Source: Maritimibacter sp.
Lineage (GTDB): Bacteria > Pseudomonadota > Alphaproteobacteria > Rhodobacterales > Rhodobacteraceae
DNA length: 64,000 nt
Reading direction: 5' to 3'
Assembly (NCBI GenBank): GCA_017792445.1
Contig: CP051232.1
Location: forward strand, 4,004,001 to 4,068,000
Shown one piece after another: positions 21,820 through 28,328 of this stretch. The stretch's first letter is position 1. Every line of letters starts with the position of its first letter. Position numbers and translations under genes: made by a program. The notes beneath the pieces are model-generated. The model saw nothing but the letters and a program-made list of their open reading frames with translations. It did no database searches and was not told the DNA's origin.

Positions 21820-21953
21820 TAACCATTTGGAAAGTTCTTGCCTCCATTTCGCCTCAATCTGTGAGAGATTAAGGAAAGAGTAAGGAATCTGAAATAGCAG
21901 TTAACAAAAGGGGTCGCGGGCGACAATGCGCGCGTGGTCCCGGGGGTAGTGTG

Positions 21954-22640
21954 ATGGAGCTTCGGCACCGGGGGTTTGAGAATGTCGTTTCGCTTTTCGG
22001 AAAGGCTGTACCGTTGAAATATCCGGCCATCGCGCAGGTCGACGCCTATTGGGAAGGGCTGCGGCAGGGCCGTCTCATGCCCGACCGGGCCGAGGTCGAT
22101 CCGCGCGGGTTGGGCACGTCTCTGGAATACGCCTTCCTGATGGAACACGTGGCCCCCGGCATCGCGCGGGTGCGGATTTCGGGGATGCACCTGCGCGACC
22201 TCTTGGGAATGGAGGTCCGGGGCATGCCGCTGACCGCTTTCTTCCTGCCCGACGCGCGCGAGCGTATCCAGAAGGCCGTCGAGGCGGTCGTCACCGCGCC
22301 GCAGGTCGCCGACATCGCGCTGTCCGGCCAGCGTGGCATCGGTCGCCCTGCCCTGCCCGCGCGCCTGTTCCTTGCGCCGCTGACCAACACCGAAGGCCGG
22401 GGCACCCCGCGTATCCTTGCCTGCCTTGAAAGCCACGGCGAAATCGGGCGCGCGCCGCGCCGGTTCTCGGTCGATCAGGTCCAGATGCGCCGGATCGTGG
22501 CCACGGCACAGCCGGAACCGGAAGACGCGCGCGAGACCCAGCCTGTGCAGCCCGGCTTTTCCGAACCGGGCGCGACCTTCCGTGGCGGATCGCAGCGGCC
22601 GAACCTGCGGCTGGTGCAAAGCGACGACGACAGAGATTGA
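21954..22640 (+). CDS. PAS-domain protein (PAS_5 type)
   Basis: 228 residues. The N-terminal two-thirds (AIAQVDAYWEGLRQGRLMPDRAEVDPRGLGTSLEYAFLMEHVAPGIARVRISGMHLRDLLGMEVRGMPL) match the alphaproteobacterial PAS_5 family of single-PAS proteins. No output domain follows; the tail is Arg/Pro-rich. It may sense a ligand and work with a partner, but the role is unknown. The ATG at 21954 follows a GGGGG tract; a GTG directly before it is an alternative. The gene is divergent from yicC and ends at a strong terminator. Confidence 0.8.
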   Translation: MELRHRGFENVVSLFGKAVPLKYPAIAQVDAYWEGLRQGRLMPDRAEVDPRGLGTSLEYAFLMEHVAPGIARVRISGMHLRDLLGMEVRGMPLTAFFLPDARERIQKAVEAVVTAPQVADIALSGQRGIGRPALPARLFLAPLTNTEGRGTPRILACLESHGEIGRAPRRFSVDQVQMRRIVATAQPEPEDARETQPVQPGFSEPGATFRGGSQRPNLRLVQSDDDRD

Positions 22641-22755: not shown

Positions 22756-22793
22756 AAAAAAACCGCCGCACTCCCGGGACAAGGAGGCGGCGG
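22756..22793 (-). terminator. Intrinsic terminator of the small membrane protein transcript
   Basis: Leftward reading gives a stem from GGAGGCGGCGG (22783-22793) with CCGCCGCACTCC (22763-22774), with one bulged base, followed by T7 (A7 at 22756-22762 on the given strand). No other leftward gene is near, so it marks the end of the 40-codon gene transcript, leaving an approximately 160-base 3' untranslated region. Confidence 0.8.
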
Positions 22794-22950
22794 CAAAAAG
22801 CGTCTGTTCGATCGGGCGCCGGTTGCGGGGGATGTGAGGCTTACCCCGTTGAGGCCAGGATCAGGCGAACTGGCCGACGCGCGAGAGTTTGGGACAGTGC
22901 GCGGGGACCGGCAGGATGACAGAACGCAGGCAGAACTTGGTGAATAGAAC

Positions 22951-23073
22951 CTAAAGAATACCGGGCAGATTGAGACCGACCACCAGCATCAGGACCAAAG
23001 CGGCGGCGCCGGCGGCATCCTGAAGAAGGGTCGAAGAAGAACGGGTCACTACGTTTTTCATTTCATTGATCAT
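22951..23073 (-). CDS. 40-residue single-span membrane protein under a LexA-type box
   Basis: A short frame of 40 residues: a polar N-terminal half (MINEMKNVVTRSSSTLLQD) and a hydrophobic C-terminal half (AAGAAALVLMLVVGLNLPG) long enough for one membrane span. The ATG at 23073 has AGGGAA about 8 bases upstream; an in-frame extension of 27 residues upstream runs through the operator and has no coding character. Its own terminator at 22756-22793 shows it is a separate transcription unit. An exact GTTC-N7-GTTC element lies 55 bases upstream, so SOS control is likely. Function is unknown; the form recalls the small SOS-induced division inhibitor SidA of Caulobacter, without claimed homology. Confidence 0.65.
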   Translation of the reverse strand: MINEMKNVVTRSSSTLLQDAAGAAALVLMLVVGLNLPGIL

Positions 23074-23127
23074 GTCGATGTTCCCTGTTGTTGCTCCTTT
23101 GTTCTCATGCCGCGTTCTTTTTGTAAA

Positions 23128-23142
23128 GAACTTTATGAGAAC
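23128..23142 (-). promoter_or_regulatory. LexA box (GTTC-N7-GTTC)
   Basis: Leftward the sequence is GTTCTCATAAAGTTC, an exact match to the direct-repeat SOS operator of alphaproteobacteria. A further GTTC half site lies 6 bases before it (overlapping 23146-23153). The element sits between the recG stop and the small membrane protein start, in promoter position for the latter. Confidence 0.7.
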
Positions 23143-23169
23143 ATTCGCGAACAAATTGGCAGCGAAGGG

Positions 23170-27614
<4,445 letters not shown>

Positions 27615-28328
27615 TCACGCGCCGATGGCGATCTGGTCGTTCATTTCCGCAGGTTCCGGGTCACGCAATACATAGCCCCGGCCCCAGACCGTCTCGATAA
27701 AATTGTCGCCGCCGGTGGCCTGCGACAGCTTCTTGCGCAGTTTGCAGATGAACACGTCGATGATCTTCAGTTCCGGTTCATCCATGCCGCCGTAAAGGTG
27801 GTTCAGGAACATCTCTTTCGTCAGCGTGGTGCCCTTGCGCAGCGAAAGCAGTTCCAGCATCTGGTATTCCTTGCCCGTCAGGTGGACCGCCTTGCCCGCA
27901 ACCTCGACCGTCTTGGCGTCAAGGTTCACCTCGATCGAGCCGGTGCGGATCACCGATTGCGAATGCCCCTTGGACCGGCGGATGATCGCGTGGATGCGCG
28001 CCACGAGTTCTTCCCGGTGGAAGGGTTTGGTCAGGTAGTCGTCGGCGCCAAAGCCGAAACCCTTCAGCTTGTTTTCGGTGTCGTCCGCGCCGGTAAGGAT
28101 CAGGATCGGCGTGTCAACGCGGGCGATCCGCAATTGCCGCAGCACGTCGTGGCCGTTCATGTCTGGCAGGTTCAAATCAAGAAGTATGAGATCGTAATCA
28201 TAAAGTTTCGCAAGATCGATCCCTTCCTCCCCCAGATCCGTCGCGTAGACATTGAGGTTGGCATGGGACAACATCAGTTCGATGCTCCGCGAGGTGGCTG
28301 GGTCGTCTTCCACAAGAAGGACACGCAT
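27615..28328 (-). CDS. ctrA: Cell-cycle response regulator CtrA
   Basis: 237 residues. The N-terminus [20 protein letters not shown], phospho-acceptor Asp51 (LILLDLNLP), and the OmpR-type DNA-binding domain with [20 protein letters not shown] and [14 protein letters not shown] identify CtrA. In Rhodobacterales it controls motility and gene transfer agents more than viability. The ATG at 28328 starts the conserved protein and GGAGTG precedes it. The sciP gene lies upstream in the same direction across a 252-base AT-rich gap. Confidence 0.96.

Follow-up and report, generated by a model that had tools for sequence, protein, structure and literature searches.

A conserved membrane microprotein gene with a LexA-type operator after recG in Rhodobacterales, and a structured RNA beyond its stop codon

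Directly after the DNA-repair gene recG, the genome of a Maritimibacter species carries a frame of only 40 codons preceded by what resembles an SOS operator, raising the question of whether so small a frame is a true gene, whether it would respond to DNA damage and what its product might do in a damaged cell. We examined this locus in a 64,000-nucleotide stretch of contig CP051232.1 (hereafter the window; features are listed in Table 1), and compared it with the corresponding loci of relatives. On the minus strand of the window the genes are arranged in the order ctrA-ligA-recG-microprotein gene, a neighbourhood of repair and cell-cycle functions in which recG is the immediate same-strand neighbour and ligA (an NCBIfam equivalog match) and then ctrA lie farther out. 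The unit is bounded by the recG stop (23170) and by a PAS-domain gene on the opposite strand (21951-22640), and the microprotein gene is present as a single copy in the source genome. A first-pass annotation, made from the sequence alone, had described an exact GTTC-N7-GTTC box ahead of a tiny gene beside recG and ligA, with a good ribosome-binding site, one membrane span and its own terminator. The box and the neighbours are as it stated, with 54 nt between box and ATG; the ribosome-binding site is present and only fair, and the terminator exists and starts about 156 nt past the stop codon, outside the interval that had been annotated. As a whole the observation was confirmed, and comparison makes the case much stronger than a single window could.

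Table 1. Positions of features at the microprotein locus, in window coordinates.
Feature	Position	Strand	Basis
recG, upstream neighbour	23170..25641	-	listed frame with extended start; NCBIfam equivalog NF008164, 1110 bits
ctrA, cell-cycle regulator, past ligA	27618-28328	-	NF045991, 430 bits
Third GTTC half-site, 10 nt ahead of the operator	23149..23152	-	GTTC at that offset in 99/110 genomes
LexA-type operator GTTCTCATAAAGTTC	23128..23142	-	exact GTTC-N7-GTTC; conserved in relatives; same box type at own lexA and recA
TTTACA, likely -35 element, abutting the operator	23122..23127	-	consensus of 110 promoters; putative role
GAGAACAAAGGAGCAAC, conserved element containing GAAC-N7-CAAC	23090..23106	-	fixed-offset conservation in relatives
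Ribosome-binding site AGGGAA, 7 nt before the ATG	23081..23086	-	sequence
Gene for a 40-aa single-span membrane protein, MINEMKNVVTRSSSTLLQDAAGAAALVLMLVVGLNLPGIL	22951..23073, stop codon included	-	ATG at 23073; profile searches, length, pN/pS, predicted structure
Conserved structured RNA, closing helix around hairpins with C-rich loops	22794..22933	-	match to model R1; covariation in relatives
Intrinsic terminator, 13-pair stem + T7	22756..22794	-	sequence; terminator scans of relatives

Searched with the single protein sequence, 247 of the family's 295 genomes gave a match at E <= 1 (246/294 genera). A profile of the 30 best matches (A1), applied to 292 high-quality genomes of the order with a threshold of E <= 0.1, found the protein in 259 of them and in 107 of 112 genera. 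For the analysis of individual loci we used a set of 116 (110 distinct genomes), made up of the 30 best matches, 26 loci from later searches (6 of them from repeat genomes) and half of another 120 places, taken alternately from the list, a sample that leaves out the weakest protein matches. With the start taken as the ATG nearest to the profile start, the protein is 40 aa long in 93 of these loci and 38-42 aa long in all 116, and pN was lower than pS in 100/100 pairs that were at least 75% identical (means of 0.14 and 0.60, uncorrected and from non-independent pairs). Because the length is near-constant and pN lies below pS, we regard the gene as coding, and the microprotein, judged by these sequence measures, is under purifying selection. 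It is not a member of a described family in the collections searched: the protein had no match in Pfam, NCBIfam or PHROGs, 30 members scanned singly against Pfam touched three families with one member each and only at E 0.13-0.22, and no relative of solved structure was found at E <= 1.

Among 385 genomes of the class, 36 matched the profile at E <= 0.1, and matches were strong (E <= 1e-14) only in 5 genomes of the own family; none of the 380 genomes of other families gave a match better than E 0.004. We rejected a wider spread within the class, reading the 31 matches in other families (E 0.004-0.1, mostly within long frames) as chance. The promoter pattern described below matched 7 of the same 385 genomes, namely the same 5 own-family genomes and 2 others, of which one match is GC-rich and one lies ahead of a small single-span frame. 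A mobile origin was rejected as well, since no relative was found in IMG/VR (one peptide pattern; 22 stretches, 0 confirmed) or in phage records, and no similar DNA in plasmid records.

The case for regulation by DNA damage begins with the box. Taken alone the window is unremarkable, with 5 box matches against 2.28 expected and 6 of 100 shuffles reaching 5; the box is noteworthy because it is conserved. An exact GTTC-N7-GTTC lies within 220 nt upstream of the gene in 116/116 loci, and elsewhere on the same strand of these loci only 2 exact boxes occur in 330,995 nt. In a named GTDB set (Ruegeria, Phaeobacter, Sulfitobacter, Tritonibacter, Loktanella and others), whose 53 members partly overlap the 110 genomes, the box was exact in 51 and had N6 spacing in 2. 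Two Zongyanglinia genomes (L258, L259) carry GTTC-N6-GTTC-N6-GTTC upstream of the gene, which would provide a natural spacing variant for the study of LexA binding.

The conservation extends well beyond the box itself. Across the 110 distinct genomes the promoter consensus reads GTTC.CaaATGTTCTcAaAAAGTTCTTTACa, 14 nt and TGAGAACAAAg.ggCAACA, and is some 60 nt long. GAGAACA stands at one fixed offset from the box in 101/110 genomes, while GAACN7CAAC is found between box and gene in 99/110 (96 at one offset) and GAACN7GAAC in 7/110; the GAGAACAAAGGAGCAAC element of the window is perhaps a degenerate inverted operator lying over the -10 region. A generic consensus promoter scan found no promoter here. 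Two further candidates were set aside: a leader peptide MRTK encoded by ATGAGAACAAAG was rejected, its first base being poorly conserved (0.8 bit) and its frame relative to the gene variable, and a second exact GTTC-N7-GTTC (22922-22936, minus strand, inside the 3' RNA motif) was taken as probably a chance match because aligned relatives read differently at that place.

The same type of box marks known SOS genes of the source genome, where lexA is preceded by two overlapping boxes (GAAC-N7-GAAC-N7-GAAC) and recA by one exact box; imuA- and uvrD-like genes, named from our own reading of the sequence, have a box as well. Across the lexA loci compared, an exact box was found upstream of the gene in 26/26 parsed loci (the start was recognised by motif, and 4 of 30 loci were unparsed). 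A census of the own genome placed GTTCTYN5GTTC at 23 sites, only a few of them intergenic, against 12 for the pattern read backwards, and many of the own-genome matches are therefore chance. A GTTC-type LexA motif has been used for D. shibae (PMC6473078), and recG of some alphaproteobacteria appears to be LexA-regulated (PMC3323433); PMC6473078 makes no mention of recG. Because the operator is present at the gene and the same operator at lexA and recA, we strongly infer that the microprotein gene is under LexA (SOS) control. LexA bound at GTTC-N7-GTTC, which overlaps or abuts the -35 region, would shut the promoter, DNA damage would lead to LexA cleavage and release of the promoter, and the gene would then behave as a monocistronic SOS gene.

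Genomes in which the protein search fails offer a separate view of this arrangement. The promoter pattern was used to search, without reference to the protein, 43 genomes with no or only weak single-sequence or profile matches (the listed non-matching genomes and five weak ones, 41 other non-matching genomes lying outside the sample) together with 3 positives. It matched 25 of these 46 genomes, once in each, with 0 matches for the backward control, and all 25 matches were followed 15-51 nt downstream by a single-span frame of 31-45 aa. A relaxed pattern applied to the remaining 21 genomes matched 7, with a small single-span frame following in 6; the background rate of such a frame was 48 in 5000 random places. 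The frames after the 25 matches usually have D-x-x-G and a final L-P, as in MTREFLSDLLGVTALSVITGVMLWLPAILQA, and forms lacking D-x-x-G were seen at L169, L170 and L192. Promoter and diverged frame are thus kept in 28 of the 43 genomes, the two not having been recovered in the other 15. The first-pass annotation had said that relatives with the box and no frame would refute its reading, and this check came out in its favour, a small single-span frame following all 25 matches and 6 of the 7 relaxed ones. The gene also keeps its place, with recG as same-strand upstream neighbour in 106/110 loci. Box, promoter, gene and post-recG position being conserved together, the view that this locus encodes a damage-inducible membrane protein of the Rhodobacterales is strongly supported on comparative grounds. 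The original interpretation is thereby supported in part, its proposal of a division block resting on analogy with SidA and YneA.

What might such a protein do? Hydropathy indicates one span (best 17-residue mean of 2.32) and AlphaFold a single helix over residues 2-39 (mean pLDDT 85.8, pTM 0.45), in line with the one span of the first-pass annotation and with a membrane location that is predicted. D-x-x-G and L34 are each present in 110/110 sequences and P37 in 107/110; the invariance of the D and the G is partly by construction, because rows were anchored on D-x-x-G, the motif nonetheless being found in all 110. The strongly conserved residues T15, D19, G22, L26, L30 and L34 lie on one helix face and are followed by L36-P37, and the periodicity of conservation over residues 15-36 was highest at 100 degrees among the angles tried (permutation p 0.006). 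A face conserved in this way points to a specific partner in the membrane. The N-terminus would probably lie inside, followed by a short basic stretch and then by one membrane helix, the conserved face of which would dock on another membrane helix. The partner would most likely belong to the late divisome (FtsW, FtsI or FtsN), and septum synthesis would pause during repair, as with SidA in Caulobacter.

By analogy, then, we favour, at somewhat better than even chances, a reading in which the microprotein inhibits the late divisome in a SidA-like division block. SOS proteins of this kind, small and with a single span, form an established class with targets at FtsW or FtsN: SidA acts on both, and YneA on FtsW, where it docks by its membrane helix (PMC4211646, PMC13396833). 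SidA of Caulobacter crescentus is likewise alphaproteobacterial, SOS-controlled and a tiny inner-membrane protein, of 29 aa (PMC4211646), and cells of Caulobacter deleted for lexA are described as filamenting, those deleted for both lexA and sidA as not doing so. The parallel lies in control, size and predicted span; the microprotein differs from SidA in having 40 aa, in standing after recG and in often being accompanied by a conserved 3' RNA. The division inhibitors YneA, SosA and ChiZ of Gram-positive bacteria are also small SOS membrane proteins. YneA and ChiZ, however, have a LysM domain outside the cell, and in SosA the helix is extended (PMC13396833), whereas the microprotein has almost nothing outside its span, and this near-absence of a periplasmic part counts against the division-inhibitor reading. 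Literature searches limited to open-licence papers brought up no description of this protein and no SOS division inhibitor of Rhodobacterales. Should the microprotein pause cell division during DNA repair, as it may, the gene would be a directly testable checkpoint candidate with a conserved helix face open to mutation. Tractable marine and phototrophic species are among its hosts, in an order that is ecologically large in sea and soil.

TisB and DinQ of E. coli are SOS-induced single-span peptides as well, and are antisense-regulated toxins of narrow distribution. A peptide of this type would insert in the inner membrane, lower the proton-motive force and induce dormancy with no specific block of division, a role that the SOS-type operator, the small size and the single hydrophobic span would suit; we nevertheless think it unlikely here, because the microprotein gene is widespread and single-copy after recG rather than patchy, and because the protein has one conserved helix face. 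A scan for sigma-70-like sites, and with them an antisense promoter, found none on either strand between 22500 and 23700, but it is a weak test that missed the gene's own promoter and whose consensus may not fit the organism. Marginally less probable again is a small accessory component of a membrane complex belonging to the envelope or linked to repair, for instance one that tunes a transporter, a respiratory enzyme or the gene-transfer-agent machinery at the time of the SOS response. The conserved helix face also fits this role, and LexA is described as required for the R. capsulatus gene transfer agent (PMC9638019), yet recG upstream was the only adjacent partner gene seen. Downstream, the first frame with 110 codons or more lies on the opposite strand in 80/109 loci (by a crude frame choice).

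The division-block reading concerns the protein, and the locus does not end with it. Some 140 nt shortly past the stop codon make up what is, judged from the comparison of relatives, a conserved RNA structure, a new element absent from the first-pass annotation. Three short patterns are shared after the stop codon in relatives, CTGCCTGC in 70/109 loci, CCTGTCCC in 67/109 and TGCCTGTC in 53/109, and these three of the nine patterns tried were absent (0) from an equal-length control within recG about 800 nt upstream; others were common in that control, GCGCGCG being commoner there (32 vs 7). Terminator scans found a strong terminator in 93/109 loci when loops of up to 25 were allowed, a setting run without a control, and in 16/109 with loops of up to 10 (1 after shuffling).

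Evidence for pairing comes from alignments of differing breadth. On the broad alignment A4 (65 sequences) RNAalifold returned the terminator only; on A5 it returned a 13-pair long-range helix with double changes in 11 pairs, a result biased because the 22 sequences of A5 were chosen for visible pairing. A 30-pair structure named on A5 was paired in 83.7% of cells (76.7 in shuffles), with 18 pairs changed on both sides (9.1 in shuffles); on four of the five measures 0/500 shuffles reached the observed value, and on the fifth (pair types) 9/500 did. The closing helix was 95.8% paired on A5, with compensatory double changes in 9 of its 10 pairs, against 25-46% for slid versions. The inner hairpins were weaker, at 59.5-86.7% paired, the last of them with many gaps. 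In a looser test the helix formed in 55 of 61 sequences with their own partners; with partners swapped it formed in 35 of 61 on average and in 45 at most, and a second such test gave a similar outcome; folding energy without the terminator had a mean z of -1.8 (25 sequences, mononucleotide shuffles). When sequences were folded singly, the loops CTGTCCC and CTGCCTG were for the most part unpaired (0.75 and 0.77, respectively, vs 0.43 overall).

The resulting motif can be recognised outside the sequences modelled. Model R1 matched the window, which is not part of the model, with 30.0 bits (E 0.00088 in 375,154 bases). At E <= 0.01 (96 sources) it matched 38 of 56 loci of the gene not used in the model, always just after the gene; these 56 are part of 88 such loci and include L001, the window's own locus. 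There were 0 matches at the same threshold in the 16 diverged loci searched (of 28), in 22 lexA loci and in a 19.9-kb stretch of division genes. The modelled part of the family thus has a conserved structure and a terminator downstream of the coding region, and the 16 diverged loci do not show this. A shorter fold, with CTGCCTGT, was seen by eye in some of the diverged loci. Across 20 loci no match to an Rfam family attained the gathering score, the best match of the window piece having E 0.31, and no description of this RNA came up in the searches of open-licence papers.

The RNA would either tune or stabilise the message or be released as a regulatory RNA, and the unit may thus be bifunctional, giving protein and RNA. 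Precedents by description are DinR of Klebsiella, which derives from the 3' end of an mRNA that encodes a small protein under LexA control (PMC10907235), and UdsC of Rhodobacter sphaeroides, from the same order and likewise derived from the 3' end of a hypothetical-protein message. UdsC differs in its reported length of 67 nt and its RpoHII-dependent promoter, and the words recG and LexA are absent from the main text of both papers on it (PMC9779115, PMC8625941). Through a covarying RNA with no Rfam match, control at the RNA level could be tied to the SOS response. A more ambitious scheme, which we put forward tentatively and hold to be rather improbable, is a bifunctional SOS checkpoint in which one LexA-controlled transcript would yield both a divisome-jamming microprotein and a 3' RNA whose CUGUCCC/CUGCCUG loops silence G-rich messages; if this were true, division would be stopped at the protein and the RNA level simultaneously. 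That the RNA is the main product, the gene serving mainly as the 5' portion of a 3'-derived regulatory RNA under LexA control like DinR, which is processed from the 3' part of the dinI mRNA and represses ftsZ (PMC10907235), suits the covarying closing helix, the conserved C-rich loops and the terminator, but is the least probable alternative, the protein being under purifying selection and present in diverged loci where R1 is not. In crude tests the loops showed no preferential pairing with division-gene starts, as called by a simple gene finder that frequently picked antisense frames, and no pairing signal with the gene's own ribosome site. The likelihoods given to the toxin, accessory-subunit and RNA-first alternatives are not mutually exclusive.

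Other families of the class may have SOS membrane microproteins too. Outside the own family, a filter applied to 26 loci picked out 2, L224/L290 (G409) and L291 (G600), in which a LexA-type box directly adjoining TTGACA stands before a small single-span frame that differs in sequence, with frames of 34 and 35-37 aa in two genera of family f116; a third case (L298; G345, family f52) was seen by eye before a dnaE-like gene, again named from our own reading. Genomes of family f37 carry many copies of GTTC-N7-GTTCTTGACA, at 13 places in G330 and 7 places in G554, which by their sequence are a repeated LexA-like promoter. Among the copies at L285, L304, L307, L308, L310 and L311, several are followed by similar sequence, CTAGGAATTTGATACTA...TGTGCACAC, with no obvious long gene.
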